A stretch of DNA of 28,215 nucleotides, from positions 1 to 28,215 of the IMG/VR virus record IMGVR_UViG_3300036806_000133. The stretch is one strand, 5' to 3'. The DNA is from a virus. Positions 691-28,162 of this stretch are shown piece by piece (position 1 is the first letter of the stretch; each line of letters begins with the position of its first letter). The notes under the pieces are model-generated. The model was given only the letters and a program-made list of their open reading frames with translations. It did not search any database and had not been told where the DNA came from. The position numbers and the translations under genes are program-made.

Positions 691-719
691 AAAGCAGGCT
701 GGGAGAACGTTCCCGGCCC
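691..719 (-). terminator. Possible terminator after the tail fibre gene
   Basis: Directly after the fibre stop codon the minus strand can fold into a stem of GGC and GGGA pairing with TCCC and GCC (arms 711-718 and 697-704) with one mismatch. Only a short TTT follows, so it is a weak candidate for the end of the late operon. Confidence 0.3.
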
Positions 720-720
720 T

Positions 721-4037: not shown

Positions 4038-4077
4038 CATCAAATATGCGGATATACTTGGCCCGTGGAGGTTAGCT

Positions 4078-5015: not shown

Positions 5016-6863
5016 TTACTGCACAACTCCCAAATCTTGCTTGCCGTCGCTCCAGTGCAACTTGCCGTCACTGCCTGGAACCTTCATGGTTGCCCCTGCG
5101 GGAGCACTGCCCACCGCTGGAGTTTCCGGCTGTTTCGTCCGGTTTGTTGGAGTGGAAGCAGCGGTCGCCCAGGACGGAAGCTCGACGCCTAATTTCTGGA
5201 AAGCTTTCGCACCTTCCGGGTAGAGGACATAAGGATGCTCGCCCGTCAGACCGAAGAAAGAATCGTGAACGGCAGACAGCTTGGACATCATCAAATTTGC
5301 GTCTGCTTTCACGACGCCCGAGAGGGCGTCCGGGCCTAAGTCCTTGCCCAGCGTGTCACCGATATGTTCGATTTCCGAGTCGGTAACCTGACCTTTAAAT
5401 ACTTTGCCCAGTTCGCCCGAGACGGCATTGCGGATCGCCTCGAATACAACAGGCGCGGCTTGTCCGGTCGCCACGCCATACTTGTTTGCAATTGTGTTAA
5501 GCATTTTGAGGTCGCCATTGTTCAGCGCCGTGATGGCATCCTGCAATTGCGACAAGTGACCGCTTGCAGTGTTGAATGCAAGAACAGCTTTATGGTCTTC
5601 TCCGCTCGCCAAGCTCTGGCGTGCTGCTTTGATTGCCGGCCCATTAGGTACCAATGCCTGGTTATCGTTGCCTTGCGGCACTCCGTGCGGAGTGTTCGCA
5701 CCTGGAGCCGCATTACCCGCAGCTCCGCTTGGAGCCGCTGAATGTCCTGCAGCACCAGCCGCAGCGCCGCTTTGCAACGCTGAGTTGTTTCCGAAGTCGA
5801 TGCCATACGTGTTGACACCGAAGTTGCGGTATGCGAGATTCACGCGCTCTGTCGCAAGCTGGAACCGCTTCTGCGTCATCTCGTACTGTTTCAGTTTGAG
5901 TTGATAGAGAGGCGAATTTGGATCGTTTGCCGCCTTGTCCAAATCTGCTTTTGCGAGAGCCTGAGCTTGCTGCGCTTCGTAGAGTTCCTTGTGCGATGAA
6001 TCCAGTTCCACTTTTGCATTCTGGGCACGCGAACTCTCTTCTTCCGTCAAAGGCTTTCCAGTAGCGGGATTGAAGCCCGCGCTGAGCATCTTGGGCTGCG
6101 CTGCTGTTTGTGCGACAGCGACTTTCACCGGGATATAACGCCCAGTGTTCGGATCGAATACAAACTGAGAGTTTGCTGCCGCATTCTTTTGCGCGGTCTC
6201 TGCCTGCTTCTCTTTCAGATTTATGTCCGCTTGCTGCTGCATAGCAGGAAGGTTCGTGTCATACTCGCGCTTCGCCGCTTCGCTCTGTAGCCAAGGCTGC
6301 AAGATAGTCATGCCCTCGCCAGGGCGTCCATTGGTTCCCCAAGGATCGCGTCCGCCAAATTCCGCGAGACCCGCTGCTGCAATAGCTAGCGCCTTGCGAA
6401 GATCATTGTGCTGGTTGCGCCAAGAGTCAGCACCCGGCTGACCGTCAGGAATTTTGTCGAACGGCCCACGCGGGCGACCCGGTACTTGAGCGTGCTCCGC
6501 AGGAGCCAACGAAGGTGTATCGGTTGAAGGCTGCCCAAGCCAGCTCGGAACATCGGTATTCGTACCCGGCACACTCAGTGATAGAGGCGGAGGCACCGGA
6601 GCATTCTGATTCTGCTCTGCGGTGTGAAGTTGATCTAAAGCCGAAGGAGCAGACGGAGCGTTCACTGAAGGCAACGGAGCTTGACCTTGCTGCTGCGAGG
6701 CATCCGGAGACACGTTCTGCGGAGCTGCTGTGGGAGCAGGTTCATTGGCAACAGCGGGAGGCACCTGACCGCCCGCTGCTCCACCTTTGATTAAAGCCTG
6801 GAGCCAATCAGGAAGCTGCTGCGTCCCATCGCCGTTATCGTTTTGTAGCCAGTTCATTGCCAT
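5016..6863 (-). CDS. Large internal-virion / DNA-ejection-type protein (615 residues)
   Basis: The first ~170 residues are Pro/Ala/Gln-rich and probably disordered. Residues about 200-345 are helical and charged, including a coiled-coil-like stretch around KVELDSSHKELYEAQQAQALAKADL. A second Gly/Ala-rich linker follows, then a compact helical C-terminal domain (about 420-560) with a TASGHLSQLQDAITAL start and a GEHPY end. This domain style is familiar from phage injection proteins but has no catalytic signature. The start is ATG at 6863 or 6857; neither has a strong ribosome-binding site. It directly precedes the 262-residue protein. The role is inferred from position between tail proteins and fibre in a short-tailed phage. 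Confidence 0.6.
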   Translation of the reverse strand: MAMNWLQNDNGDGTQQLPDWLQALIKGGAAGGQVPPAVANEPAPTAAPQNVSPDASQQQGQAPLPSVNAPSAPSALDQLHTAEQNQNAPVPPPLSLSVPGTNTDVPSWLGQPSTDTPSLAPAEHAQVPGRPRGPFDKIPDGQPGADSWRNQHNDLRKALAIAAAGLAEFGGRDPWGTNGRPGEGMTILQPWLQSEAAKREYDTNLPAMQQQADINLKEKQAETAQKNAAANSQFVFDPNTGRYIPVKVAVAQTAAQPKMLSAGFNPATGKPLTEEESSRAQNAKVELDSSHKELYEAQQAQALAKADLDKAANDPNSPLYQLKLKQYEMTQKRFQLATERVNLAYRNFGVNTYGIDFGNNSALQSGAAAGAAGHSAAPSGAAGNAAPGANTPHGVPQGNDNQALVPNGPAIKAARQSLASGEDHKAVLAFNTASGHLSQLQDAITALNNGDLKMLNTIANKYGVATGQAAPVVFEAIRNAVSGELGKVFKGQVTDSEIEHIGDTLGKDLGPDALSGVVKADANLMMSKLSAVHDSFFGLTGEHPYVLYPEGAKAFQKLGVELPSWATAASTPTNRTKQPETPAVGSAPAGATMKVPGSDGKLHWSDGKQDLGVVQ

Positions 6864-15950: not shown

Positions 15951-17180
15951 TTAGAACTGGAAGTTGATTGAGTTCGGAACTGCGAGCTGGTCAATGCGAC
16001 CAACAGCAGCAGGAATCTCAAACAGCCAGTTACCGATTTCGCGGGCAACAGCTTCGTACTTGAGGAAGCCCGGAACCTTCTTCAGAATGTGACCGTCCAT
16101 CTCAGACCACTTCAGTGGCGAGACGACGCCTTTCTTCACGGTGCCCTTGTTCATGCCGTAGACAAACTGCGGATGACAGAAGACGTCCTTGCGAAGCGGA
16201 ATTCCGTTGTACTCCAGCTCAGTGAAGCCGCGATCCAGCTTGTTAGTGTTCTGATAACGCTTCAAGCCCTGACCAAGTCCCACATAAGCATTGAGCTGCG
16301 CATCACCAGCGACGATGAAGTCAAGCTCCTTACCGGAGCGAGCCGGAATCTGCGTATCCAGTTGTTGCAAGTGGCTCTCAGTGAGACCGTTGCCGTTCGC
16401 CGGAATAACAGTGCCCTGAATCTGCGGATAAGTGTTACGCGACAAACTTTGGAAGGTGACGCTGGTCGAGTTGTCGGAAGCCAGGTATAGGCCCTGAAAC
16501 TCTTTATTGAGAGAATTGTTACGCACGATAATGTCGCCAGCAGTCAGAGTCTGAGCCGCCGAGACCGTTACGTTCTGCGTGACCGGGTTGATGCCGGTGA
16601 TTGTCAGAATGGAAGACGTGCTGTTACGCTGCGTGGTCTGATCTGAAGACCAGATATCAATTGCGTCGCCGACGCGAAGGTACTTCACACCGAACTTGCC
16701 GAACGTGGAGCCAGTCGCAGCTACGAGCGTGGTCGAGCTGGACGTGTTGGCGTTGACTGAGGCGAGAGTGCCGGAGCCGTCGCCGAAGAGCATGATGTTC
16801 TGGTGCCACTTAAGGTCCTCGACCATGTTTTCGATTTCGTCGTCCAGGAGGTTGACGAAAGCGCGGGCATTGCCCTCGGTGTTCTCAACGTCTTTTTCGT
16901 AGACGGCGATAGTGCCTTCGAGCATGCGGTCGAAGATTTGGAATTTCTGGATGTTCTGACGGGAAGGTGTGGGAGTCGGGTCGTCGGAAAGACGGGCACC
17001 GATACCAGCGGTGTTGCCACCGACGCGAGCTGCCATTTCAAAATGGTCGCCGCCTAATCTCTCAGTGGACTTTTCAAAAATGTCGTAAGTTTGGGCTTTG
17101 CGGTTGAACTGGGTTTCCAGTCCACCGTAAACGTTCTTCAGGAGCCCGCCAATCCTAGTAATGGTATTTGAATCTGCCAA
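15951..17180 (-). CDS. Major capsid protein (HK97-like fold)
   Basis: 409 residues from a TTG at 17180. AAGGAG lies 8 bases upstream (17189-17194), and the product begins LADSNTITRIGGLLKNVYGG. An in-frame ATG at 17246 would add 22 residues of Cys-rich sequence unlike any capsid N-terminus, encoded by leader RNA structure, so it is rejected. Features typical of HK97-fold capsid proteins are the early FEKSTERLGGDHFEMAARVGG segment, the helical stretch with NLLDDEIENMVEDL, IMLFGDGSG, a beta insertion (about 165-230, VGDAIDIWSSDQ through TAGDIIVRNNS), and the C-terminal DFIVAGDAQLNAYVGLGQG and GIPLRKDVFCHPQFVYGMNKG strands. It follows the scaffold gene and is framed by a structured leader and a terminator-like hairpin. 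Confidence 0.85.
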   Translation of the reverse strand: MADSNTITRIGGLLKNVYGGLETQFNRKAQTYDIFEKSTERLGGDHFEMAARVGGNTAGIGARLSDDPTPTPSRQNIQKFQIFDRMLEGTIAVYEKDVENTEGNARAFVNLLDDEIENMVEDLKWHQNIMLFGDGSGTLASVNANTSSSTTLVAATGSTFGKFGVKYLRVGDAIDIWSSDQTTQRNSTSSILTITGINPVTQNVTVSAAQTLTAGDIIVRNNSLNKEFQGLYLASDNSTSVTFQSLSRNTYPQIQGTVIPANGNGLTESHLQQLDTQIPARSGKELDFIVAGDAQLNAYVGLGQGLKRYQNTNKLDRGFTELEYNGIPLRKDVFCHPQFVYGMNKGTVKKGVVSPLKWSEMDGHILKKVPGFLKYEAVAREIGNWLFEIPAAVGRIDQLAVPNSINFQF

Positions 17181-17236
17181 TGTTGAATCTCCTTGCCCAA
17201 TGCAGGGCAAAAACAAGTCAGTTGCTTGTCTTGCCC
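17181..17236 (-). promoter_or_regulatory. Capsid leader RNA with alternative hairpins at the ribosome-binding site
   Basis: On the minus strand three segments read GGGCAA (17231-17236), TTGCCC (17205-17210) and GGGCAA (17193-17198). Segment 2 can pair with segment 1, extended by ACAAG/CTTGT (17225-17229 with 17213-17217) around a 7-base loop. It can instead pair with segment 3, whose last two bases are the first two of the AAGGAG site. The two folds exclude each other, as in translational switches. Confidence 0.5.
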
Positions 17237-17285
17237 CGCATCCCACAAGAAGGTGCAGATTCGTAAGGAGACAAAATCCTGCTAG

Positions 17286-17298
17286 TAGATAGGTACTC
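17286..17298 (-). promoter_or_regulatory. GAGTACCTATCT element between scaffold and capsid
   Basis: Minus-strand CGCGAGTACCTATCTA starting some 15 bases after the scaffold stop, one mismatch from the copy before scaffold. Part of the recurrent late-region element. Confidence 0.35.
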
Positions 17299-17312
17299 GC
17301 GCTTTAGGAAAG

Positions 17313-18524
17313 TTATTGTTTTCCGGTCAAACCTTGGATGGCTTGCGAGATGCGATCTTGTTTCGTCGCGATCTTCTTGGCACCCGGCTTAAGATTGGAA
17401 GCTGCGCCGTTCCCAGGACTGGGCTTTTTCACCACAATCCTTTTCGAGCCCGCCGTGACGGGCTTCATGTAAGCCTTTGCCCGTTCAAGCTGCGCGTTGT
17501 TATGGTTCGTGAAGAACCTGCGCACATCAACAAAATTGCCTTTCGCGATGCGATCCATGATCGCTCTTGAGCCACCCGGATACTGCTTTACCATCTGAAT
17601 GATTGCGGTCTTATAGTCGGGGAAGAACTTCTCATCGACACTCTTGTCTTTCATCAGACGTTTGATTTCATTCTCGAAGCCGGTTTCATGCTTCTGTTCC
17701 TCTGGAGTTAGCTGGCCCAATTGTCCTGGCACTTTCCCGTCCAGGCGTGCCTGTAGCTGTTTGATCTGTTCAACCAAGGGCTGCAACTCGGGATTTCCCT
17801 TCGCCGCGCCATTGACTGCTTGACCGAGGGTTCCAGGAGCCGCTGCTCCCGTCCCAGCTTGATCCTTAGCGACAAGCTTGAATCCACGCATATCGAGATA
17901 TGCTTCAAGGAATCCATTTTTTCCCAAATGGTCTGCCATATTGAGATAGATGGGTTCGACAACTTTCTTTTGGTCGAAGTCCCTCTCAAGATTCGAGAGG
18001 AGTGTGCCGACTGGCAGCGTCTGGTCGATGATCTGGTACAGCATGTGAGCATCGGTACGCTCAAGCCTTAACTGTTGCACTGCTTTCGGAAAATCGGCGG
18101 TATCAATTGCATACCCTTCCGCCAAGGCATCCTTCAGAATATTGATTTGCTCTTCAGTTTCAAGGAGAGCCTGCACGCGAGGTAGTTCCGCGATTTCAGC
18201 GGGGAGGGCATTTGGATCTTCATCTGCAACATTGCCGTCCGCCTCTTTGACTTCATCCTCTTCTGCGGTTTCGTCGGCGGTCTTTTCTTCTTTCTTCCCA
18301 GGCTTTTCTTTTTTGCCTTGAGGAGCTTCATCGACCTGTTGCTCAGCTTGCTCTTCCTGGGGTTGTTCGGTAGCCTCTGCGGCGTTTTCCTGCTCAGCAG
18401 CGAGTTCGTCCAACTGCTCGTCCAAGTTTTCCGTTTCCTGCGTCTCGTCGGTGACGACCTCTGGGGCTGACCCTGTTCTCAGGAATTCTTCCGCTGCGTT
18501 CTTAGTGTTGCCTTTGCTTGCCAT
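17313..18524 (-). CDS. Scaffolding protein (403 residues)
   Basis: The N-terminal quarter (about 20-110) is extremely acidic and rich in Glu/Gln (DETQETENLDEQLDELAAEQ and onward), broken by one basic patch (GKKEKPGKKEEK). The middle is helical (VQALLETEEQINILKDAL, PLVEQIKQLQARLDG). The C-terminal 60 residues are basic (KRIVVKKPSPGNG, GAKKIATKQDRISQAIQGL), like the capsid-binding end of P22-type scaffolds. It lies between portal and capsid, the canonical position. Its start has an AGGAGAG site inside the duplicated leader element. No protease domain is visible, so the scaffold is probably released rather than self-cleaving. Confidence 0.75.
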   Translation of the reverse strand: MASKGNTKNAAEEFLRTGSAPEVVTDETQETENLDEQLDELAAEQENAAEATEQPQEEQAEQQVDEAPQGKKEKPGKKEEKTADETAEEDEVKEADGNVADEDPNALPAEIAELPRVQALLETEEQINILKDALAEGYAIDTADFPKAVQQLRLERTDAHMLYQIIDQTLPVGTLLSNLERDFDQKKVVEPIYLNMADHLGKNGFLEAYLDMRGFKLVAKDQAGTGAAAPGTLGQAVNGAAKGNPELQPLVEQIKQLQARLDGKVPGQLGQLTPEEQKHETGFENEIKRLMKDKSVDEKFFPDYKTAIIQMVKQYPGGSRAIMDRIAKGNFVDVRRFFTNHNNAQLERAKAYMKPVTAGSKRIVVKKPSPGNGAASNLKPGAKKIATKQDRISQAIQGLTGKQ

Positions 18525-18528
18525 TTCG

Positions 18529-18578
18529 TACTCTCCTCAAGAGCCGGATAACAGGAGATTTGCTCCAGCCTCGGATTT
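18529..18578 (-). promoter_or_regulatory. Duplicated leader element, copy 1 (before scaffold)
   Basis: A 50-base block immediately upstream of the scaffold start, sharing AAATCCGA, GGAGC, GTTATCCGG, TCTT and AGGAGAGTA with 15364-15410. TCCG-AGGC-TGGA forms the same tetraloop hairpin as in the other copy, with a G-U pair where the other has G-C, a compensatory-type difference. Confidence 0.65.
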
Positions 18579-18590
18579 TGTGATTTCAAT

Positions 18591-18604
18591 TTAGCTAGGT
18601 ACTC
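18591..18604 (-). promoter_or_regulatory. GAGTACCTAGCT element between portal and scaffold
   Basis: Minus-strand CGCGAGTACCTAGCTAA just after the portal stop, followed by the duplicated leader element. Best match to the consensus of the recurrent late-region element. Confidence 0.35.
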
Positions 18605-18610
18605 GCGAAG

Positions 18611-20974
18611 TTAAGAAGGAACTTGATTTGCGACGCTTGTCCCTTGCGAAACGGCAGCGTGCTCTATCTGTCCGGCAGTTGTGTTTTGGTCAATCACGCC
18701 CCCGAGCGGATTTTGGTTCTGCCCATTCGCCATTGCCTCTGCCATGCCTTTTTCGGCTGGTGCTGCGGGCTGCGATCCGCCCGCTGCTCCCATCTGCGCT
18801 TGGGCGATCTGGCCCATAGCCGCGTTGGCGGCGATTTCTTGAACCTTCTGATTGATAAGGGCGCACAGGTTGAGAAGGAACTGCTGAAGCTGCAACGGCT
18901 GCTCTTCAAACTCCTCACTGAGTGTGTATTCGGTGAAAAGGCGCAAATGGACATCCCACTTGATGAAAGGATTTGCCAGCGGAGGCATTTCGCCGCGCTT
19001 CGCTTTGTCGAGGTCGCGCTCGGCTTTCTCCACATGAACATGATCCTTTGCATCGAGTTCGGACATGCCGAACATCGTGAGCAGTGTCTCTTTCAAATCT
19101 GGGTCTGTCGGGTCGAGTAGCTTGCCTTCAATTGCCATCTGGATGTAGCCCAGCTTGTCGGAAAGCGTTTTCGGCTTCGATGAACCAGCCTTGAGCGTGA
19201 TTTCGTAATTTCCGACTAGATCGGCTTTGGTCAAAGTCATGGCGCGGAACTTGCCGTTCACGCCCGCGACTTTGGCTTTGCGCTCTTCAGTCCAGAACAA
19301 TCGCGCCATCAGCAGCACTTTGCGGTAGCGCAGCTCATGGGAGTCTTCCCAAAGCTGGCGCTGTGTGCTGATCTGCTCTGCGGCTTTCGCACCGAGATAC
19401 GCGATTCCACGGAAGCTGCCTACGCCACCACCTGGCGCTTGCCCTTGCGTAACTGCCTCGGTCAAACCGATAGCCATGATGTCGTTGATGATCTGTCCAC
19501 GGAATTGATAAATGCTTCTGTCCAGCGCGGTCGGCGTGGTGTAAACAGGCGCACTCTTACCATCGCCCTGATTGTCGTACCAAATAACTTCGGTAGGGCT
19601 TCCATCTGGTTTGAAGATGCCTGCTTGTGTCTTAGGCGCAATCCACTTTCCGGTTGAATTGCTCATGTTGGCAAGCAGCATGAGCGAGTCCACCATGTTC
19701 AACATCTTTTGAAGCGGAACAAGATGAAAAGCTGGGGCGTTCGGATATGGCGAAGCTGGGTCTTTCTCCCACATGAAAAATGTGTAAGGGAAGTAGTGCT
19801 GACCATTCTGCTCATCAACGAGGGGATTGATTCCCCATTCAAGCATCAAGCCCTGAGCAGGAAGGTACTTAAAGAAAACACCAGCAGCTTGTGCGCGTTC
19901 AATATCCTCTTCGTTGTAAGAGGAACTGGAGAACTCTTTCTCCAGCATGTCCTGAAGCTTCTTCGGGAGTTCATCCCACTCTGCCCAAACTTCGCAAACC
20001 GTCGCCTGATCCTTCGCGCGGTCCTCTGAGCCGAGCGTGTAGCCCATCATGGAGCGAAGGGTCTGGAGGCGGTACTGAGAAATGTCTAGTGAGGTATCTT
20101 CCTTGATTGCGTCAGCAGCTTCCGGGTGCATCCTGCGAAGTTCGCCTACTGGACGGCGTGTCCGCTCCACAACACACGAAGCAAGATTGGGGTCTTCGCA
20201 TTCACGCGAGACATAAATTTCAAAGCAGGAAATGATGCGGCTTTTGATTTTGCCTTTGCCGTAGCGAGTAACGTTGACTTGGTCAACAACTACTTCCGGG
20301 TAGGCATGCGTATTTGTTTTTCCGCAATATGGGCATGGAGTTCCATCCTGCCAAGGCAGTTGACGTTCGCCATTCTCGGGTTGCTGGATAGATTGTGAGG
20401 CAGTTTCGCCGCAATCGTCGCACCCGAGCGATACATTTTCTGAAGTCTCTGTCTGTTCATCTCGCGTGACGCCATTGGACGTGGATTCGTCCCAGTAATC
20501 CTTTACGCATGCCAGTCCGAAAAGCGGCACATGCTTTGCCAGAATCGGGTTAAGGAAAATCATTCCCGATTCGAGGTCAATGACATCCTTTGCGCGAGAC
20601 GCCATGTCGGCGGCGCGTTCGCTGTCAGGGCTCTCATCCAAGATGATGGTTTCAATCTGAGGCAAGGCTGCGCCGAGCTGGTTTGCGAGGGCATTGACAG
20701 TCTTGGTCAGATAGTTTGTGACAGGCATCGGTCGAGGGCGTTTCTTGTCACCTTTCTGTTCGACCCAGCGACGGGCATCCGCTTCCCAGTCAAGCCATTG
20801 CTTGCCTTGGTAGAAGAGACCCTGCTGCTGCCACAATTTCTCTTCGATGTAGCGCAGTCTGGAAAAACTTTTGAAGCGAGATTCCCCGAACGCCATGAAA
20901 GCTTTGTCCAGCGGACTTGATCCGCTGCCTAAAATTTCATCCATGTATGTTTTCGGGGTAGTGTCAGTTGCCAT
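18611..20974 (-). CDS. Portal protein with inserted zinc-ribbon-like module
   Basis: 787 residues, the length of P22-type podovirus portals. The N-terminal RLRYIEEKLWQQQGLFYQGKQW and VTNYLTKTVNALANQLGAALP, the wing segment SRIISCFEIYVSRECEDPNL, the DPASPYPNAPAFHLVPLQKML region and a Gln/Ala/Gly-rich C-terminus (barrel-like helix LLNLCALINQKVQEIAANAA) fit a portal. Residues 185-217 carry two CxxC pairs (C185, C188, C214, C217), each followed by Gly, a zinc-ribbon pattern not usual in portals. The stop of the preceding 101-residue gene directly abuts its ATG (TAA-ATG). It precedes scaffold and capsid and follows the terminase region, the standard order. Confidence 0.8.
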   Translation of the reverse strand: MATDTTPKTYMDEILGSGSSPLDKAFMAFGESRFKSFSRLRYIEEKLWQQQGLFYQGKQWLDWEADARRWVEQKGDKKRPRPMPVTNYLTKTVNALANQLGAALPQIETIILDESPDSERAADMASRAKDVIDLESGMIFLNPILAKHVPLFGLACVKDYWDESTSNGVTRDEQTETSENVSLGCDDCGETASQSIQQPENGERQLPWQDGTPCPYCGKTNTHAYPEVVVDQVNVTRYGKGKIKSRIISCFEIYVSRECEDPNLASCVVERTRRPVGELRRMHPEAADAIKEDTSLDISQYRLQTLRSMMGYTLGSEDRAKDQATVCEVWAEWDELPKKLQDMLEKEFSSSSYNEEDIERAQAAGVFFKYLPAQGLMLEWGINPLVDEQNGQHYFPYTFFMWEKDPASPYPNAPAFHLVPLQKMLNMVDSLMLLANMSNSTGKWIAPKTQAGIFKPDGSPTEVIWYDNQGDGKSAPVYTTPTALDRSIYQFRGQIINDIMAIGLTEAVTQGQAPGGGVGSFRGIAYLGAKAAEQISTQRQLWEDSHELRYRKVLLMARLFWTEERKAKVAGVNGKFRAMTLTKADLVGNYEITLKAGSSKPKTLSDKLGYIQMAIEGKLLDPTDPDLKETLLTMFGMSELDAKDHVHVEKAERDLDKAKRGEMPPLANPFIKWDVHLRLFTEYTLSEEFEEQPLQLQQFLLNLCALINQKVQEIAANAAMGQIAQAQMGAAGGSQPAAPAEKGMAEAMANGQNQNPLGGVIDQNTTAGQIEHAAVSQGTSVANQVPS

Positions 20975-21280
20975 TTACTTGGTTCCGTCTTTGTGCTCGT
21001 CGTAGCTTTGCTGCAAAATCGCCAGTTCGGCTGAAATGTCTAAATCTTGGTCTGTCGTGATATCGCCAGATTCCGTTTGAAATACAAAATCGTTTTCCTC
21101 AAACGGGATCACAGTTTCCGTAGGCGGAGTCGGATGGGCGAGAACATCAGGCTTGAAAAACTTGTCATCCGACAAAACTTGGACAAGGTTCTCCAGGCGC
21201 TTGATCTCTTTCTGCAAATCCGCGATGTGAGACTTCAGGGAAGCGACTAATTCATGCCAAAGTGAAACCTGTTTGCTCAT
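20975..21280 (-). CDS. Small coiled-coil phage protein (101 residues)
   Basis: The N-terminal half is a coiled coil (SLWHELVASLKSHIADLQKEIKRLENLVQVL) followed by an acidic, mostly disordered tail (PTETVIPFEENDFVFQTESGD, ISAELAILQQSYDEHKDG). Its ATG overlaps the stop of the zinc-ribbon protein (ATGA, 21277-21280) and its stop abuts the portal start, so all three are probably translated together. It could be a portal-binding or assembly factor; no family is recognised. Confidence 0.65.
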   Translation of the reverse strand: MSKQVSLWHELVASLKSHIADLQKEIKRLENLVQVLSDDKFFKPDVLAHPTPPTETVIPFEENDFVFQTESGDITTDQDLDISAELAILQQSYDEHKDGTK

Positions 21281-21579
21281 CTGGTGCGTTTCCTCGTCAC
21301 AGGCACAGCCGGATTGAGAACAACGGACTGATGCCGAGTGAAAATCTTGTCAATGCCATGCGCATAGCACTCTTCTTCAGTGACTGAAACGCCGTCCTTG
21401 CTCCACATGTTTGGAGTGGTGCCGTTCCGCGTAAACCCTTCCGCTTCCAGCCGTGTACGGATGCTGGAGTGATCGTCCGCGTGCTGCCTCTCGCATTCTG
21501 TCCCGCAAAATCGACTGCCGTCGTTTGACTGTTTGGCTCCGCATGCATGACATGCATGAAGCTTTGGTTTTCTGGGCAT
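21277..21579 (-). CDS. Zinc-ribbon-like small protein (100 residues)
   Basis: Residues 10-29 contain C10-x2-C13 and C25-x3-C29, with FCGTEC after a short loop, a typical zinc-knuckle or treble-clef pattern. The remainder (TRLEAEGFTRNGTTPNMW, VTEEECYAHGIDKIFTRH) is soluble, and the C-terminus is basic (VTRKRTR), which would suit nucleic-acid binding. The start overlaps the upstream stop by one base (TGATG) and its own stop overlaps the next start. It precedes the portal gene, suggesting a role in packaging or head assembly rather than replication, but this is inference. Confidence 0.65.
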   Translation of the reverse strand: MPRKPKLHACHACGAKQSNDGSRFCGTECERQHADDHSSIRTRLEAEGFTRNGTTPNMWSKDGVSVTEEECYAHGIDKIFTRHQSVVLNPAVPVTRKRTR

Positions 21580-22046
21580 CAGAACTGCGCCTTCTTTTTT
21601 GATACCGCGATAATTACGTGGTCATTCGTTTCGCCAAGCTGCTTCCAGTCCTTGTATGTGGGCGACTGACCGGATTCTTGCCCTTCAATCTCATCCATAT
21701 TCGTTTTGCCGGTGAGGATGTCGGTGCCCTTTTTAATTCTGGCGTCCTCGGCGGTAGGCTGTGTCTTCTTCTTGCCTGCCGTGTCCTCGCCGCGCAATCC
21801 CTTCGTGAAAAGGGCTGCGAGAGCGGGGCCGAATTCTTTGCTTTGCTGATTGACTTTGGAATCTTCCTGCGGAGTTTCCCCTGCTCCCGCTGTAGTCGTG
21901 CCCTTCATCAGCTTGTCCGTGTCGCGGTTTAACTCAACAGGGGCTTTATCGACCGGGCCCATAACTTTTTTGTTGGTCGCTGATCCCGGCATGTTCGTAC
22001 CAGTCAACGGCTGCTTGGACTTCATCTTCTTGATGTTTATTGCCAC
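21579..22046 (-). CDS. Hypothetical Lys-rich head-region protein (155 residues)
   Basis: GTG start at 22046 with an AAAGGA site upstream. The sequence is hydrophilic and low in aromatic residues (INIKKMKSKQPLTGTNMPGSA, ELNRDTDKLMKGTTTAGAGE), probably largely disordered. One short ordered helix is FGPALAALFTKGLRG, and the C-terminus TYKDWKQLGETNDHVIIAVSKKKA is more structured. It overlaps the zinc-ribbon gene by one base. No family is recognised; proteins of this sort near portals are often minor virion or assembly factors. Confidence 0.6.
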   Translation of the reverse strand: MAINIKKMKSKQPLTGTNMPGSATNKKVMGPVDKAPVELNRDTDKLMKGTTTAGAGETPQEDSKVNQQSKEFGPALAALFTKGLRGEDTAGKKKTQPTAEDARIKKGTDILTGKTNMDEIEGQESGQSPTYKDWKQLGETNDHVIIAVSKKKAQF

Positions 22047-22055
22047 GGGAGTCCT

Positions 22056-22451
22056 TTAGTTGACGATGACAGGGAAAGAGACAGAGCCACTTGAAAGAGT
22101 CATCGTGCCGGAGACTTTCAAGAACTTCACGTATGCCTTGATGTTCTGGACGGTTTCACCATTCGTTGCGTCCCATGCGGGATGCGTGGGCTGGCTCGCC
22201 GTATCGGTTTGCTTAATCTCTGCAAGAAGGATGTCGAATACAGTTCCATCTACAGAGCCCAGAAGTTGTGCGTCAATCGCGGTTACAACCCCATTCCCAC
22301 TTGGGCGGGCTGCAAACGTGATGCGGTACTCCTCAAGTGGCTTTGAGAAAAGTGCGATGACGTCGGAGGCGATGGTTGAGCCAGTGAAGGCTGTGATACC
22401 GGGGCCGTTGGTGAAATGTGAGAGAACGTCGCGTTCAATACCAATGCTCAT
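22056..22451 (-). CDS. Hypothetical beta-rich phage protein (131 residues)
   Basis: The predicted composition is beta-type with regular alternating segments (YRITFAARPSGNGVVTAIDAQL, GTVFDILLAEIKQT, NIKAYVKFLKVSGTMTL, SVSFPVIVN). The pattern of a variable mean plus a VKFLKVSGTMTL strand recalls small virion or decoration-type proteins, but this is a loose resemblance. An AAGGAT site precedes the ATG at 22451. It sits in the run of short genes between terminase and portal. Confidence 0.6.
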   Translation of the reverse strand: MSIGIERDVLSHFTNGPGITAFTGSTIASDVIALFSKPLEEYRITFAARPSGNGVVTAIDAQLLGSVDGTVFDILLAEIKQTDTASQPTHPAWDATNGETVQNIKAYVKFLKVSGTMTLSSGSVSFPVIVN

Positions 22452-22460
22452 TATGAATCC

Positions 22461-22796
22461 TTAAGTGTTCAGGCTCATTTCTTGAACCCAGAACGTATTT
22501 TTGAGTTCTTTGTCATTCACTCGCGACGCCAAATCGCGCTTCATGTTTCGGCGATATTCGCTTATGGTTTCCTGATCGAGGAAACAGTTGTCGCAAATGA
22601 AGCGGTACTTGCCGGGTTTCCCGTCAATTACTTTGAAGAAAAATCCTTCGGCAGATTCTTGCGGAGTGATGTAGCTACGCCCGGAGAGTGGATAAGCATC
22701 TATCCTGACGAGGTGCCGAACAATCGGCTTCATGTCCTTATCGAAACCGTCTACAACCGGAACATCCTCAGCTTTGCAGCGATGACAATGACGCAA
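22461..22796 (-). CDS. Zinc-binding-like small protein (111 residues)
   Basis: TTG start at 22796, supported by a GAGGAG site nine bases upstream inside the end of the preceding gene. CHRC (C4, C7) at the N-terminus and CDNC (C68, C71) near the middle form two CxxC pairs about 60 residues apart, a split zinc-ribbon pattern. Between them lies a region with DAYPLSGRSYITPQESAEG. The C-terminus is helical and charged (ISEYRRNMKRDLASRVNDKELK). Likely a small nucleic-acid- or protein-binding factor of the packaging region; no family name is justified. Confidence 0.6.
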   Translation of the reverse strand: MRHCHRCKAEDVPVVDGFDKDMKPIVRHLVRIDAYPLSGRSYITPQESAEGFFFKVIDGKPGKYRFICDNCFLDQETISEYRRNMKRDLASRVNDKELKNTFWVQEMSLNT

Positions 22797-22799
22797 GAG

Positions 22800-23057
22800 T
22801 TAGTACTCCTCGTCGCTCTCTTCTTCCGGTTCAGCAGCGTCTACGAGCGTGTCAATGCGCTGATCCTTGGAGGCTTTGTGGAGTTGATCCTTGACGCACT
22901 TCAGTACGCCGTCGATGGATTCGTAGACTTCCTTTTTCGTATCGCCAAAATAGGGGTCGTCTTTCTTCGGATTCGTAGGGCGGAAGCGAACATGCACTTC
23001 AAAACCGTTATCTGCTGGACAAACCTCAATGCAATCGAGTCGTTGTTTTCCTGCCAT
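22800..23057 (-). CDS. Hypothetical acidic phage protein (85 residues)
   Basis: A small alpha/beta-looking protein: LDCIEVCPADNGFEVHVRFRP suggests two strands, followed by a helix (TKKEVYESIDGVLKCVKDQLHK) and a very acidic tail (DAAEPEEESDEEY). The last codons carry the ribosome-binding site of the next gene. AAGGAATACGC precedes the ATG. The arrangement is common in unnamed small phage genes between terminase and portal. Function unknown. Confidence 0.6.
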   Translation of the reverse strand: MAGKQRLDCIEVCPADNGFEVHVRFRPTNPKKDDPYFGDTKKEVYESIDGVLKCVKDQLHKASKDQRIDTLVDAAEPEEESDEEY

Positions 23058-23066
23058 GCGTATTCC

Positions 23067-23552
23067 TTAGTACCCGATTGCGAGGGTTTCGATTGTGATG
23101 GAAGAGACATCGGTTGAAGCCGCAACTTCGATGCCCTGTCCACCAGTCAAAGCGGGAGCCGCGAGTGAACCGGAGAAGGTAACGTTCAAAGTCGGTTTGG
23201 CAGCAGAACCAGTCATCGTGGTTGAACCCGTGTCAGGTGTCACCGTGCCCGCGTGAGTGCCGATGCCAGGGGCAGCAGCAACCGGAGCCGTAACTGTCGC
23301 AGGCGCAGATGCGCCGCCAGTCGGATAGAGCAACTTGATCTTTTTGTTAGCGCGATCCCACTGTGCGATAAGTCCGCCGCTCACAGCGAGAATCACAACG
23401 GCATCAACGGCATAGTCCAAACCAAAGTTGGATGGCGTATAGGCGACTCCGCCGCTCGTGTACGAGGTCGGGCCAGTGAGTGTGACTTGAGTCTGGTAAC
23501 GAGCACCGGGAACGGTGCGCGAGTTAACGGTTTGAGTAAAAACTGTGGACAT
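23067..23552 (-). CDS. Possible head decoration or virion protein (161 residues)
   Basis: AAGGAG lies ten bases before the ATG, one of the best ribosome-binding sites in the window, suggesting high expression. The protein is beta-rich and low in charge, with Thr/Ala/Gly/Pro-rich loops (VTAPVAAAPGIGTHAGTVTPDTG) and a core of YAVDAVVILAVSGGLIAQWD and NKKIKLLYPTGG. This matches proteins found with capsid genes in many environmental phages, where a decoration or minor-capsid role is suspected. It is the first gene after the large terminase. Confidence 0.5.
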   Translation of the reverse strand: MSTVFTQTVNSRTVPGARYQTQVTLTGPTSYTSGGVAYTPSNFGLDYAVDAVVILAVSGGLIAQWDRANKKIKLLYPTGGASAPATVTAPVAAAPGIGTHAGTVTPDTGSTTMTGSAAKPTLNVTFSGSLAAPALTGGQGIEVAASTDVSSITIETLAIGY

Positions 23553-23572
23553 TTAAAAAAGCTCCTTGTGGC

Positions 23573-25099
23573 TTACAAATCTCTCTGCTGGATCGCGTCT
23601 TGGAACGGGCTTGTTAGCCCTTGCTGGTCGCGCAGTCTTTGACGAAACAGCAGCGTCGCGTCCTGCCAGTCCGGTTCCATTTGTTCAAGCGGGATAATGG
23701 AAATAGCGGGTCGCGTAATCAAGCCGTAACGCAAAGCGTCAGGCGCGTGATCTTCCAAGCCTTTCCGCTGAACGTCTTCCTGCTTTATCTCGTCGTGAAC
23801 AAGAGCAGGCAGTGTGCGGATCAAATTCCGGCATGTGTTGAAAATGAACAGCCGTGGTTTGATCTTGAGGTTTTCGAGTTTCCGATGTTGATCGGGAATC
23901 GACTCGTCCTCTTCATACGCTAGATACTCGCGAATGCGTGTCCAACCATTGATTCGGTCGCCCGGTGCAGCAGCGGCAGGCGTGCAAGTCCATCCCGCCA
24001 TAGCAAATTCTTCAGCGATAGAGACGCCGGTCTGGGATTCACCCTTCATCCACGACGCCCAGCATTTGGAATCAAGCTTTTTGTATTCGAGAGTTTCGAG
24101 TCCCGTCTCTTCGATTAAAATCTCAGCCCATTTCGACGGTACGGTCTTGCGCCCGTATACCTCGCGATAGACATACACATCCCCGGAAGGGGAGACGGCG
24201 AACCACAGCCCACAGAAATAATCGGGGAAATATCCCCAGTCGCCGGCCCAGAACTTTGTCCAAAACTCTGGGATTTCAAACGGCTCAACAACGTGGTACT
24301 TTTCGCGCCACTCAGAAAAATACTGACCCTCCCACAAATCCCAATCGCCATCCGCCATCGCCCGACGCATTTGGTCAGGCAAAGTCTGGAGGTTCATCTC
24401 GTAATAGTCTTCGGGGTTAAATTTGTTGTCGCTGGCTTTCGCCTGGATGAACTTGAAGCGATCCTTGATTTTCAAAAGAGGCTTGGGAAAATTCGTCCAA
24501 TCGTTTTTAACCAGCGGGTCAATCCAGATGTTTTTGATCCAACCATGCCCCTTGCCTCCGGGGTTAGTACCAGCCATGAATGGGTGAATGAAACCCCTCG
24601 GGAAAGAAGGCTGTCCCGGCATGATGGGCCAGCGAAGGCGTTTGCGAAGCTCGTCAAAAATGTGCTGGTAGTTTTTGCCCAGCTCGTCCACGGCGATTGC
24701 CGCGAATTCAATGGAGTCGTACTTGCCTGGATCGTCGAGGTTGCGGAGCGCGATGTAGCCGCCGCCATATTCGGGTTTGAGCTGCCAGATGAGCCCGAGA
24801 GCGCGGTCTTCTTTCAGCTTGCCAAGCCAGCGGGGAAATTCAGTTTCGATTTTTGCGATTTGCCGGTCTTTCAGCGCGGGATAGTCTTCGCAAAACAGCC
24901 CGACGCGAACATTCCTCACGCCATATTTGAAAAAGGATTCGAGCAGGAAAATGACCAAGCACCAGCGGAGAATCCAGCTCTTACCTCCACCCGCGGCCCC
25001 GCCGTAAAGCACGTACTGATGAGTTTTTGTGGCTTCGTAAAACTCTAGCTGCTTAACCTGTGGGCGGAAGAGCTGCCCAATATCGACGCGCTTACTCAT
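23573..25099 (-). CDS. terL: Large terminase subunit (ATPase-nuclease)
   Basis: 508 residues. The ATPase domain has Walker A GGAAGGGKS (33-41), Walker B FAAIAVDEL (132-140, with D138 and E139) and a coupling-type AGTNPGG (176-182). The nuclease domain has AGDWGY with D287, a further acidic candidate D343 (KLDSKCW), and DHAPDALRYGL (450-460) whose Asp residues complete the RNase H-like site. It translocates DNA into the prohead through the portal and cuts it. Its ATG overlaps the end of the upstream gene by eight bases, the normal small/large terminase arrangement. It lies at the front of the head gene cluster. Confidence 0.95.
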   Translation of the reverse strand: MSKRVDIGQLFRPQVKQLEFYEATKTHQYVLYGGAAGGGKSWILRWCLVIFLLESFFKYGVRNVRVGLFCEDYPALKDRQIAKIETEFPRWLGKLKEDRALGLIWQLKPEYGGGYIALRNLDDPGKYDSIEFAAIAVDELGKNYQHIFDELRKRLRWPIMPGQPSFPRGFIHPFMAGTNPGGKGHGWIKNIWIDPLVKNDWTNFPKPLLKIKDRFKFIQAKASDNKFNPEDYYEMNLQTLPDQMRRAMADGDWDLWEGQYFSEWREKYHVVEPFEIPEFWTKFWAGDWGYFPDYFCGLWFAVSPSGDVYVYREVYGRKTVPSKWAEILIEETGLETLEYKKLDSKCWASWMKGESQTGVSIAEEFAMAGWTCTPAAAAPGDRINGWTRIREYLAYEEDESIPDQHRKLENLKIKPRLFIFNTCRNLIRTLPALVHDEIKQEDVQRKGLEDHAPDALRYGLITRPAISIIPLEQMEPDWQDATLLFRQRLRDQQGLTSPFQDAIQQRDL

Positions 25100-25529
25100 C
25101 GACGGGTTTAATGTCGCCCCAAACGATCATCACCTGCTCGGACTCGTCGTCTTTCGTTGTTCCGGGCTTGCCTTCAATCGTGTCGCGGATTATTTGCAGG
25201 CAAGTGGTTTGGCTAGGCGTAAGTTTCGTCTTGCCGGAGACGCCGTTGAGGATGATCTCTGCCCAAACTTCAGCGAAGGTCTTGCCTTCTGCTTCGGCTT
25301 TCTCTTCGAGCTTCTTGCGCAGTGCTTCAGATAGCGGCTTGAGGCGTGGCTTGTCCGGGCCACTCTCACCAGGTCTGAGTCCGGCTCCACGGAAGTTTTT
25401 CGCCTGTTCGGGGCGCTGACGAGGATCATCCGGACGGACTGCGGGATGGGATTTGTCGAGGTCTATTTCTTTGAAAGTTGTCTGGCGTGCCGATAACGGC
25501 GATTCCAATGGGTTTTTCTTTTCGCTCAC
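25092..25529 (-). CDS. DUF5681-like protein, candidate small terminase subunit (145 residues)
   Basis: GTG start at 25529; no clear ribosome-binding site, but a GAGTAACTAGCT element lies directly upstream. The first 50 residues are polar and probably disordered. A GLRPGESGPDKPRLKPLSEALRKKLEEKAEA-type segment, written here in part (GLRPGESGPDKPRL, then PLSEALRKKLEEK), followed by FAEVWAEIILNG and QIIRDTIEGKPG, matches the general pattern of DUF5681-type phage proteins (KPGxSGNPxGRP, helix, LExxxGKP). Such proteins often sit before large terminases and are thought to bind DNA. It overlaps terL by eight bases. No classical small-terminase helix-turn-helix is evident. Confidence 0.5.
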   Translation of the reverse strand: MSEKKNPLESPLSARQTTFKEIDLDKSHPAVRPDDPRQRPEQAKNFRGAGLRPGESGPDKPRLKPLSEALRKKLEEKAEAEGKTFAEVWAEIILNGVSGKTKLTPSQTTCLQIIRDTIEGKPGTTKDDESEQVMIVWGDIKPVDE

Positions 25530-25531
25530 AA

Positions 25532-25545
25532 TGAGCTAGTTACTC
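25532..25545 (-). promoter_or_regulatory. GAGTAACTAGCT element before the packaging genes
   Basis: Minus-strand GAGTAACTAGCTCA, 16 bases from its first base to the GTG start at 25529, in a gene start lacking a ribosome-binding site. It matches elements near the starts at 26611, 18524 and 17180. Its role is unknown. Confidence 0.35.
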
Positions 25546-25568
25546 AAAGTGAGGAAAAGCCAATGGAT

Positions 25569-26003
25569 TTAAGCGGCGGTGAACTCTTGTTCTTCGGCGA
25601 GGCGTCTACGCAACAGCCCTGCAACGTGTTTTCCGCCTGCCATGTCCCACTTCTCGAACTCTTTTGCTGCCGTCTCGAACTGCTGAGCATTTACGAGCTT
25701 TAGCAGGGTGCTGTGCTGGATGCTTCCGCTTCCGAGGTTGAACGTGAAATCCACGAGCGCGTCGAACTCGCCCTGACTTAGCGGAACTGTCACCAGTGCG
25801 TTTACGACTCTTACTGCCCATGCCATGTCCTCTTGAAGCCACGCTTCAGCTTGTTCTTGTGTGCATGTCTGACCAGCGAACACGTTCAATGTGTGCCCGT
25901 AACCAATCGTCCATTTGCCGACCTGGTCCTGATACGCGGTGAGTTTGCACCCTTCAAATCTTTCTGTCAGTTGAACGCCTGACTTGCTGTACTGCATGTT
26001 CAC
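25569..26003 (-). CDS. Phage lysozyme (GH24 muramidase endolysin)
   Basis: 144 residues. The catalytic block is complete: E17 in RFEGCKL, D26 in AYQDQVGKW, T32 in WTIGYGHT, with the family's E-x8-D-x5-T spacing. The C-terminal helical region includes ALVDFTFNLGSGSIQHSTLLK and GLLRRRLAEEQEF, the usual GH24 ending. It cuts the MurNAc-GlcNAc bond of peptidoglycan at lysis. There is no signal peptide or signal-anchor segment, so release needs a holin. The start is a GTG at 26003 overlapping the spanin-like stop (GTGA); the ATG two codons later is an alternative. Confidence 0.93.
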   Translation of the reverse strand: MNMQYSKSGVQLTERFEGCKLTAYQDQVGKWTIGYGHTLNVFAGQTCTQEQAEAWLQEDMAWAVRVVNALVTVPLSQGEFDALVDFTFNLGSGSIQHSTLLKLVNAQQFETAAKEFEKWDMAGGKHVAGLLRRRLAEEQEFTAA

Positions 26004-26611
26004 AGGTGCTTACCAACCTCGATACCAATGGCAACCAAACCGACCTTCTGTACTCCGCCCCAGAGCTTGCCGAAGAATCCGTGATGCCCAGCGGCTTTCT
26101 TGTATCCCGCGACGACTTTGTCTTTCTCTTTCAGATCGGAATCTTGCTTCGCAACGATCTGCTTTTCAGCGTCGAGGTCTTTCTGTGCAGCGGTGAGTTG
26201 AACTGCGCATGTCTTCCCGTTGGCGAGTTCGGTGAATAGAGGGATGACGTCAGCCTTCGGGAACACAAGGGAGTCATCTGAGGCAACAGTGGGCTGGACA
26301 GGGAGAGTTGGAGCGACAACGGGAATCTCTTTGACTACCTGGGCAGGAGTCTTCACCGTTGCGACCAACTTCTGAATATCAGCTACCTGCGCCTGCGCTT
26401 TCGCGTCGTTGTCCTTGATCTGCTCGTGGAGGTCTGCAATGTCTTTTGCGTTCTGGGCGATGACTTGCGCCGAGGCTTTCTCCTGCGTTTCAGCTTGCAG
26501 CCTTGCATCGTGCTCTCCTCGCCATTGATAGAAAGCAACGACAGCGACCGAGGCAGCCGCAATCCAGACCAGATGGCTGAGAACGAAATGCTTCCAATCG
26601 AATGTGCTCAT
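26000..26611 (-). CDS. Membrane-anchored coiled-coil protein, candidate spanin (203 residues)
   Basis: Type II membrane topology: short N-terminus, one hydrophobic segment (about 9-29, FVLSHLVWIAAASVAVVAFY), then a coiled coil (33-88), a Pro-rich linker (about 90-110, VVKEIPVVAPTLPVQP), a second helical region (132-172) and a partly hydrophobic Gly-rich end (GFFGKLWGGVQKVGLVAIGIE). There is no lipobox. Position directly before and coupled to the lysozyme (GTGA overlap) suggests an inner-membrane spanin-like or other lysis protein; the length is somewhat more than lambda Rz. An alternative is a tail-associated membrane protein. No ribosome-binding site precedes the ATG; an AAGTATCTAGCT element lies there instead. 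Confidence 0.55.
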   Translation of the reverse strand: MSTFDWKHFVLSHLVWIAAASVAVVAFYQWRGEHDARLQAETQEKASAQVIAQNAKDIADLHEQIKDNDAKAQAQVADIQKLVATVKTPAQVVKEIPVVAPTLPVQPTVASDDSLVFPKADVIPLFTELANGKTCAVQLTAAQKDLDAEKQIVAKQDSDLKEKDKVVAGYKKAAGHHGFFGKLWGGVQKVGLVAIGIEVGKHL

Positions 26612-26626
26612 GGAAGCTAGATACTT
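26612..26626 (-). promoter_or_regulatory. AAGTATCTAGCT element before the lysis genes
   Basis: Minus-strand AAGTATCTAGCTTCC ends directly at the ATG at 26611, at a gene start without a ribosome-binding site, and matches elements at other late gene starts. Confidence 0.35.
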
Positions 26627-26652
26627 AGAGGCTTGTATTTATGGCTTATTCA

Positions 26653-26680
26653 GACAATGAAACCCAAAAGCCTATAGATT
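26653..26680 (+). promoter_or_regulatory. Weak promoter candidate for the plus-strand gene
   Basis: In the 154-base divergent gap, CAGACA and TATAGA are separated by 16 bases on the plus strand, each four of six to consensus, about 85 bases before the TTG start at 26766. The remainder of the gap is AT-rich and holds no gene that I can support. Confidence 0.25.
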
Positions 26681-26765
26681 TAATTTCACTTCTATGGCAG
26701 ATTTATATGGATTCGATCCAACCACACGGGCCTCTCTAAACCGCTAGAACCTTCGGGAGGAAATT

Positions 26766-27443
26766 TTGGCTACAGCAGAGATTGGTGCGCCGACGAGTGT
26801 TCTCACCCTCGATGAACTTGCAATTCTTGAAATGACGAGTCCTTCTCATATTGAAGGGACTGAAGAAAACCAGCCGACAATCATCACTACTAAAGACGCC
26901 TATCTATGGGCAGTCCTTTTTTCTCAACTGGTTTCGGACGGAAGAGACAACGATCCAGAATGGTTCCTCAATAGATTCCGATCCGTGCTTGGTAAATACC
27001 GTAACCCCCTTAGAAGTCTGCATCAAAATCTCCTATTTGCTCCTGTACTGCATATACCTTCCAGAATCTTTGTGAAAACAGGGGAGGAGTGCGGCATGAA
27101 TGTTGTTGACCTCCATGATCGGACCGAAATGGCTTATAGAAGCCTCCTCAATAAGGAACTGATAGAGGATCCATTCAAGAAGAAAATTGCATCTTTGGTT
27201 GTGGCGGTTCTTTCAATAATCCCAACTGGATTTACCTCAACAACGGAGAAAGGTGGAGCATATAAAAAAGAAATTCATGCTGTCGCGTGGTCTTACGAGC
27301 ACACGAAGGATAAAAATAAAAAAGAGACGGAGATATTGGACATCAGGCTGCTCAAGTTAATTAAAACTGTTCAGACTAAAATGATAGATGTTTATGATGA
27401 AACCATCAGTGAAAATAAGCCGCCAATTACGAAGAAAAAATAA
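26766..27443 (+). CDS. Hypothetical plus-strand protein (225 residues), accessory (moron) candidate
   Basis: TTG start at 26766 with a GGGAGGA ribosome-binding site at good spacing; TAA at 27441-27443. It is visibly AT-richer than its neighbours and runs against the late operon, both signs of separate acquisition. The product is soluble and mostly helical: DAYLWAVLFSQLVSDG, EWFLNRFRSVLGKYRNPL, a hydrophobic patch KKIASLVVAVLSIIPTGF that could touch membrane, and a Lys-rich C-terminus (ENKPPITKKK). No catalytic motif or known family is recognised. Opposite-strand genes between a regulator and lysis genes are often lysogeny-expressed accessory genes (defence, exclusion, host fitness), but function here is unknown. 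Confidence 0.7.
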   Translation: MATAEIGAPTSVLTLDELAILEMTSPSHIEGTEENQPTIITTKDAYLWAVLFSQLVSDGRDNDPEWFLNRFRSVLGKYRNPLRSLHQNLLFAPVLHIPSRIFVKTGEECGMNVVDLHDRTEMAYRSLLNKELIEDPFKKKIASLVVAVLSIIPTGFTSTTEKGGAYKKEIHAVAWSYEHTKDKNKKETEILDIRLLKLIKTVQTKMIDVYDETISENKPPITKKK

Positions 27444-27508
27444 CTACCCGACGCCTAAAATTCGTAAAAAAGTCTGGCTCACCTGCGCCGCGACCACATT
27501 GACCTTTG

Positions 27509-27530
27509 AAAACTGACCCCCCAGGGGGCC
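27509..27530 (-). terminator. Terminator-like hairpin after the sigma-like gene
   Basis: On the minus strand GGCCCC-CTGG-GGGGTC folds into a six-pair GC-rich stem (one G-U) with a four-base loop, followed by AGTTTTC. An upstream GGGGG (about 27534-27538) can compete for the CCCCC arm. It lies in the 129-base gap between the convergent plus-strand gene and the sigma-like gene; nothing else is evident there. Confidence 0.45.
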
Positions 27531-27572
27531 TATCCCCCGGTGCCTTGAGCCATCCATGCATGCACCCAAGCC

Positions 27573-28115
27573 CTAAGCCACGCGCCGAGCCATGCGTCGG
27601 GCGCTTCGCTTCCATCGCCCGATGATGATGCTTACCGTCTGGTGCGTGTAAGCTCTTCCATTCTTGTGGCGCACCCGCTCCGCGATCTCGCGGTTGTTGG
27701 CTCCAGCCATGTGCATGCGCACCATGCGCCGATGAGAGGGGTTGTCCATGCCATGCATCGCGGCGTCGGCGACAAGCTGCATCGGAACACATTCTGCTGC
27801 CGGTGTGCGCATGTCAGGCAGGCGATCCGCCCAGGTCTCATCTGAATCCGGAGGCTGCGCGTCAAGGGAGATGTGTGTATGCTTCAGGATTTTGCCCAGC
27901 TCAGTGCGGCATGTGTTCGCGATGAGGCTCTTGATGTATGCGTCGTGGGCGGGGTGCTGGAAGTCGATCTTGGAGTAATGCTGGCAAAGGCGCAGACGCG
28001 CTGCGGCGAACAGGTCCTCGCCGTCCTCTGGGGGCAAGCGGTAGGTGTTGCACATGGCGCGTGCGACAGACCAAATCCAGGAGCTATAAGTTTCGAGCAA
28101 TTCTTCAAGGAGCAT
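27573..28115 (-). CDS. Sigma-70-family-like phage transcription factor (180 residues)
   Basis: Two-domain layout of an ECF-type sigma factor. Residues about 8-78 match region 2 (YSSWIWSVARAMCNTYRLPPEDGEDLFAAARLRL in part, an acidic ED followed by LxxAxxRL, then ANTCRTELGKIL). A linker follows (79-125), and a region-4-like helix-turn-helix occupies about 128-172 (HRRMVRMHMAGANNREIAERV, then THQTVSIIIGRWKRSARR). The GANNREIAERV and HQTVSIIIGRWKR phrases are typical of the DNA-reading helices. It stands first in the late-strand order, so it plausibly directs host RNA polymerase to late promoters. Alternatives are a phage antitermination-like factor with the same fold. No ribosome-binding site is obvious at the ATG. 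Confidence 0.6.
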   Translation of the reverse strand: MLLEELLETYSSWIWSVARAMCNTYRLPPEDGEDLFAAARLRLCQHYSKIDFQHPAHDAYIKSLIANTCRTELGKILKHTHISLDAQPPDSDETWADRLPDMRTPAAECVPMQLVADAAMHGMDNPSHRRMVRMHMAGANNREIAERVRHKNGRAYTHQTVSIIIGRWKRSARRMARRVA

Positions 28116-28162
28116 CTACTGGGAGATACTCGTAGCGCAAAAATTTGAAGGATTAGCGGTTG

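Follow-up and report, generated by a model that had tools for sequence, protein, structure and literature searches.

In the 28,215-nucleotide viral sequence IMGVR_UViG_3300036806_000133 (the window, meaning the whole stretch at its full length), GAGTANNTANCT-type elements occur upstream of the genes for a sigma-like protein, a spanin-like protein, a candidate small terminase, the scaffold and the capsid. They lie on the minus strand, which is the coding strand of nearly all phage genes in the window. We consider it likely that these elements are phage-specific late promoters, and that they are read by the host RNA polymerase core together with an extracytoplasmic function (ECF)-type sigma-like protein encoded by the phage itself (27573-28115, minus strand). 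The TAnnTA within the element would occupy the −10 position, and transcription would start ∼6–8 nt downstream. Each late block would be opened by an element, namely the spanin-like gene with the lysozyme, the small terminase through the portal, the scaffold, the capsid onward and, possibly, the sigma-like gene. The host of the virus belongs to the soil Acidobacteriaceae, a group that has received little study.

Elements in the window and in two relatives

Elements were scored by their mismatches to GAGTAYCTAGC, the pattern that an earlier reader of this DNA had derived from the window. The scaffold element, GAGTACCTAGC (18594-18604), has no mismatch and is located 6 nt past the portal stop codon and 69 nt 5′ of the scaffold ATG. 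A single mismatch is found in the capsid element GAGTACCTATC (17288-17298), which is 14 nt past the scaffold stop codon and ∼107 nt 5′ of the capsid start, in GAGTAACTAGC (25535-25545), 5 nt 5′ of the small-terminase GTG, and in AAGTATCTAGC (26616-26626), 4 nt 5′ of the spanin-like ATG. The weakest of the five, GAGTATCTCCC (28121-28131), has two mismatches and is located 5 nt 5′ of the sigma-like ATG. All are on the minus strand, as is a perfect match within terL, GAGTATCTAGC (23919-23929), and the coordinates and strand recorded in the earlier note are correct throughout. Per 2000 shuffles of its own region, a match as good arose 23 times for the sigma-like gene, three times for the spanin-like gene, once for the small terminase, and never for the scaffold or the capsid. 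The best matches in the tested noncoding regions of the window are bimodal, with 0–2 mismatches at the five sites and at least 4 in the other seven.

Two relatives were found by terL scanning. L006 is a 4-kb IMG/VR contig with a terL identity of 84–85%; L009 is 18 kb long and belongs to an Acidobacteriaceae metagenome-assembled genome (MAG). The structural proteins of L009 are 81–87% identical to those of the window (portal 81% and capsid 87%) and its terL is 83% identical, compared to 44% for the sigma-like protein. The counterpart of the small-terminase element is GAGTACATAGC in both relatives, at 5853-5863 in L009 and at 2479-2489 in L006, in each case 5′ of the small terminase. L009 additionally contains GAGTACATAAC at 13340, 6 nt past the portal stop codon and 66 nt 5′ of the scaffold ATG, and GAGTACATATC at 14649, 14 nt past the scaffold stop codon and 5′ of the capsid; the window has its scaffold and capsid elements at identical offsets from the preceding stop codon. 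Over these four regions, the mismatches to the earlier reader's pattern add up to 6, whereas shuffles average 16.9 and never fall below 11 (0 of 5000 as low). A matrix built from the L009 and L006 sites only, and run over both strands of the whole window, ranks the scaffold element first, the capsid element second and the small-terminase element fifth. For the spanin-like and sigma-like sites, the evidence is that of the window only. The earlier note had proposed checking whether phages with a related sigma-like gene share the motif, and L009 does so, with three sites alongside its 44% identical protein.

Enrichment over shuffled sequence, which the earlier note had made a test of its reading, is seen at the five sites, in the relatives and with the relaxed pattern GAGTANNTAGC, for which the window holds eight matches at one mismatch or fewer against 2.5 expected (0 of 100 shuffles). 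It is not seen in a blind expectation-maximization motif search of the window noncoding regions only, which returned the element motif as its top motif but scored it no better than shuffles (32.0 against 30.6 ± 2.6). Thus, the window alone is insufficient to settle the motif, and it is the relatives that settle it. The whole-window count at two mismatches or fewer is only mildly high, with 12 matches against 6.6 expected (12 is reached by one of 100 shuffles). Matches are not equally frequent inside genes, another doubt raised at the outset: three of the five exact GAGTANNTANC matches in the window are located in noncoding DNA, which makes up 6% of its length, and three of the four in L009 are within the 11% of that contig that is noncoding. 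The rarity of CTAG holds in the window (22 observed against 53 expected). One exact match, GAGTAGATACC (11218-11228, minus strand), lies just within the 5′ end of a large tail gene, for which a separate Shine-Dalgarno sequence is present; the match is probably due to chance and was treated as such.

The nine intergenic sites give the consensus GAGTA(C/T/A)(C/A)TA(G/T/A)CT, in which bases 2–5, 8 and 11 are invariant. At position 7, the five window sites all have C, whereas the four sites of L009 and L006 all have A. Such a shift at three separate L009 loci is what would be expected if a single trans-acting reader had altered its preference. The terL match is also kept in L009, as GAGTATCTATC, and its CTA is the sole conserved CTA codon of terL. 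Unlike the other L009 sites, this match retains C at position 7, which leucine coding requires; for this reason it is doubtful as a promoter, and may be a coding coincidence.

The exact pattern was not found in the more distant relatives identified by portal or terL (L004, L005, L007, L008, L011 and phage MW202554.1), nor in the first 50 kb of the Acidobacteriota phage Tunturi 1; the full 56-kb record behind L007 contains one exact match, elsewhere. Eight scans of viral contigs, one scan of genome contigs and 398, 399 and 397 sampled genomes (at family, class and order level, respectively) yielded no further close relatives. Among the sequences compared here, recurrence of the motif is, thus, confined to the window and its close relatives L009 and L006.

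Start codons, leaders and upstream sequence

No usable Shine-Dalgarno sequence is present 5′ of the sigma-like ATG (28115), the spanin-like ATG (26611) or the small-terminase GTG (25529), as the earlier note had remarked. The best match is at most three bases long and lies inside the element itself in all three cases. Shine-Dalgarno sequences are present for the scaffold, the capsid and most other genes. For the small terminase, a conserved MSEKK N-terminus, with which the homologues in L009 (5882-6304) and L006 (2583-3002) also begin, fixes the start codon. At four sites, the start codon of the spanin-like, small-terminase or sigma-like gene or, in L006, a tRNA gene is located 6–8 nt past TAnnTA, the distance being 6–7 nt for the three start codons. 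This tRNA-Phe(GAA) (2496-2571, plus strand), found in this relative only, lies between the element and the small terminase and starts 7 nt after the element. In L009, the element is followed by a short leader with AGGT ahead of the small terminase.

This geometry would favour a transcription start 6–8 nt past TAnnTA over a signal that acts directly on the start codon. Since the start point would then fall at or just before the start codon, leaderless messages are predicted for the spanin-like gene and the small terminase, and perhaps for the sigma-like gene; their possible occurrence had been raised in the earlier note, and the spacing at these three genes, together with the missing Shine-Dalgarno sequences, is consistent with it. 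The promoter box proposed there likewise appears well supported, by the orthologous sites, by the shared strand, by a placement a few nucleotides past the preceding gene or ahead of a start codon, by the tRNA gene that follows the element in L006, and by the lack of a match in the other tested noncoding regions.

The scaffold and capsid elements head conserved leaders of 66–109 nt in the window and L009, each ending in a Shine-Dalgarno sequence, and the scaffold and capsid messages would carry these leaders. The scaffold leader (18525-18593, minus strand) has AGGAG and is conserved in an alignment with L009. The capsid leader (17181-17287, minus strand) has AAGGAG and is conserved in L009 (14660-14768, plus strand) with a mean column identity of 85%; it has a fold of −43.7 kcal/mol and one compensatory pair. 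The capsid start is probably the TTG at 17180, and not that of the longer open reading frame from 17246, judging from the upstream AAGGAG and from the L009 homologue, which begins MADAN. Directly 5′ of the capsid Shine-Dalgarno sequence is a strong hairpin, GGGGCAAGACAAG...CTTGTTTTTGCCC, which is conserved in L009. A second short helix, TTGCCC/GGGCAA, beside AAGGAG would compete with this hairpin. Translational control or message stability is a possible role for the hairpin.

An ECF factor with a region 4 is expected to have a −35 element. AAT(C) is found 20–22 nt before GAG at the sigma-like, spanin-like, small-terminase, terL and scaffold sites of the window, and at the small-terminase site of L006. 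The words include AATCC 20 nt before the sigma-like element and AATAA 21 nt before the spanin-like element; the L009 small-terminase site has ATTC, and the capsid sites have GAAAA in place of AATC. In shuffles that took the maximum over all words and positions, with a position window of three, 4 of 400 were as good for the window sites, 0 of 400 once the L006 and L009 small-terminase sites were added, and 14 of 400 without the terL site; narrower position windows give weaker support. AATC may be a −35-type element, but is no more than suggestive. A further proposal, which we regard as conceivable and on balance doubtful, is that a bipartite AATC-(20-22)-GAGTAnnTAnCT is read by a phage ECF sigma with region 4 that initiates at several late start codons, such that part of the late programme would be leaderless by design and sigma and promoter specificity would have shifted together (C to A at position 7).

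The sigma-like protein and the reader of the elements

The phage sigma-like factor named in the earlier note is a 180-residue protein with region 2 and region 4-like parts, and profile, predicted helices and fold search all point to the ECF type. It matches TIGR02937 (sigma70-ECF) with an E-value of 7.2e-8, compared to 2.9e-9 for its L009 homologue, and Sigma70_r2 with an E-value of 1.5e-4. Its AlphaFold2 model has helices at residues 3–24, 29–45 and 57–80 (region 2), a low-confidence linker at 87–110, and further helices within 112–179, with a mean predicted local distance difference test score (pLDDT) of 74.9. In the predicted arrangement, a disordered linker connects the three helices of region 2 to a helix-turn-helix resembling region 4; these are the two helical domains and linker of an ECF factor, and nothing else. 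The top PDB matches in a fold search with this model are ECF sigma factors (such as SigL, SigH, RpoE and AlgU), only one of them with an E-value below 0.001. One weak match apart, no homologue of the protein was found in the phage collection. Autoregulation of the sigma-like gene through the element at 28121-28131 is possible.

Several observations weigh against promoters read by this protein. The TIGR02937 matches of both proteins and the Sigma70_r2 match all fall below the curated bit cut-offs, and the predicted template modelling score of 0.48 indicates low overall confidence in the model. The L009 sigma gene has no clear upstream element (4 mismatches at best), and no sigma gene is seen in the 4 kb of L006. 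The window, L006 and L009 are all fragments, none of them complete. The spacing of the candidate AATC, 20–22 nt before GAG, is unusually long and its support modest. Finally, L009 encodes a second possible regulator that is not seen in the window.

This second protein (L009 2473-3363, plus strand) lies directly after the sigma-like gene. By eye, its N-terminus is similar to sigma region 2, and it has weak winged-helix matches; a single-sequence structure prediction gave a pLDDT of 39. It could be the reader of the elements in place of the ECF-like protein, as could a phage activator acting with the host sigma factor, or a single-subunit RNA polymerase of the phage whose gene lies beyond the window. 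The elements would still be late promoters under this explanation, which we consider the strongest of the alternatives and yet rather improbable. It gains from the position of the possible DNA-binding regulator next to the L009 sigma gene, from the incompleteness of the genomes, and from the single strong consensus block, as is known for some phage polymerases, with no clear standard −35 element. However, no candidate regulator other than the ECF-like gene is seen in both the window and L009, the second L009 protein is not seen in the window, and a diverging sigma factor would account for the concerted change from C to A.

The element could instead act in RNA, as a processing or translation signal in a late transcript whose cutting yields leaderless or short-leader messages. 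Its position on the strand of the genes, always near message starts, and the conserved, folded leaders downstream are compatible with such a signal. However, no conserved structure is seen around the element itself, its distance to the start codon ranges from 4 to 109 nt, the scaffold and capsid already have Shine-Dalgarno sequences, and we found no known nuclease that has this motif. An RNA-level element appears unlikely.

Host housekeeping promoters with a TAnnnT-type −10, in which case the resemblance between sites would be fortuitous, appear slightly less probable still. TAnnTA is rich in A/T and its distance to the start is right, but none of the six predicted sigma-70 pairs (TTGACA-like and TATAAT-like, 16–18 apart) overlaps any element, and about nine bases are constrained rather than a loose hexamer. 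Nor is the pattern enriched in the host MAG. The 5-Mb MAG contains 27 exact GAGTANNTANC sites, fewer than the 72 of the reversed control pattern, and a rate in the host lower than that of the control gives no indication of a host regulon; four of the 27 are on the 18-kb phage contig, compared to 0.08 expected at host density. Chance similarity, for which the window-wide count at two mismatches and the weak blind search might speak, can practically be dismissed given the conservation of orthologous positions in L009 and L006, where the 0 of 5000 shuffles rules it out for the small-terminase, scaffold and capsid sites.

Known phage systems and neighbouring genes

Promoters of this kind read by a phage sigma factor are an already known strategy; the motif and the leaderless geometry appear new, as does the host group. 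The sigma factors of phiEco32 and Salmonella phage 7-11 read their own low-copy late promoters before similar gene blocks: phiEco32 gp36 uses middle/late promoters with a single element, tAATGTAtA, and starts 6–8 bp downstream, and 7-11 gp47 uses bipartite late promoters, GTAAtg-16-aCTA, with starts 6–9 bp away (PMC8948821). The window shares with both a low-copy, conserved coding-strand element before late blocks, kept at orthologous positions (three in L009 and one in L006). As in phiEco32, a phage sigma-like factor is accompanied by a single strong element ∼6–8 bp from the (predicted) start, in few copies ahead of middle/late blocks. In contrast, the motif and the host phylum differ, and gp36 has no region 4, whereas part of the window protein is region 4-like; homology between the two sigma factors was not detected. 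Phage 7-11 also combines a sigma factor containing region 4 with late promoters, and its downstream aCTA is similar to nCTA in the window element. It differs in its upstream element and spacing; the window has a longer conserved block (GAGTAnnTAnCT), and its candidate upstream element is no more than suggestive and lies at a greater distance. GAGTAnnTAnCT matches neither tAATGTAtA nor GTAAtg-16-aCTA; a shared motif would be needed for the same specificity, but not for belonging to this kind of promoter.

The late promoters of T4 (TATAAATA) consist of a single −10-type element read via the divergent phage sigma gp55, and T4 late transcription needs a sliding-clamp activator. A −10-type single element read by a divergent phage sigma would be common to T4 and the window, but the sequence of the element differs. 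The window protein is similar to bacterial ECF sigma factors, such as M. tuberculosis SigL and SigH, in its length, in its region 2 and region 4 layout and in its best fold matches. It is set apart from them by scores below the family cut-offs, by a motif and spacing unlike the usual ECF −35/−10 pair, and by its phage context.

A paper on Acidobacteriota phage isolates does not mention sigma factors or promoters (PMC11924767), and a literature search found nothing on transcription in Acidobacteriaceae phages. The elements provide a concrete, testable promoter code for these phages, in which the 5′ ends expected from the leaderless geometry are sharply defined. The concerted one-base change of the motif between relatives with diverged sigma factors opens sigma–promoter co-evolution to test.

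The genes that follow the elements include the major capsid protein (15951-17180, minus strand; phrog_14242, E-value 2.6e-43), the small-terminase candidate with its GTG start (25092-25529, minus strand) and the spanin-like gene (26000-26611, minus strand), which has a weak match to the Rz-like spanin phrog_739 (E-value 0.02). The lysozyme (25569-26003, minus strand; PF00959, E-value 1.6e-46) follows the spanin-like gene. The portal and adaptor of the window match profiles of SU10, a phiEco32-like phage. No match was found in Rfam.

Additional features were observed around the lysis region. A gene on the opposite strand (26766-27443, plus strand) has a 55% identical counterpart in L006 (1223-1897, minus strand) and no Pfam or NCBIfam match; it is possibly a cargo or defence gene. 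L006 also encodes, on the opposite strand and upstream of the lysis region, a DUF7019 protein (83-766, minus strand; PF22880, E-value 6e-55). Beside the L009 lysozyme, the gene at 4915-5226 (plus strand) contains an Acb2/Tad1 hairpin domain (PF24729, E-value 5e-14), of the anti-CBASS/anti-Thoeris sponge family. All three sequences share a GGCACCGGGGG-type G-rich inverted-repeat stretch upstream of the lysis region (window 27500-27560, minus strand; L006 ∼1120-1170; L009 ∼4000-4060), which may be a terminator or a packaging site.

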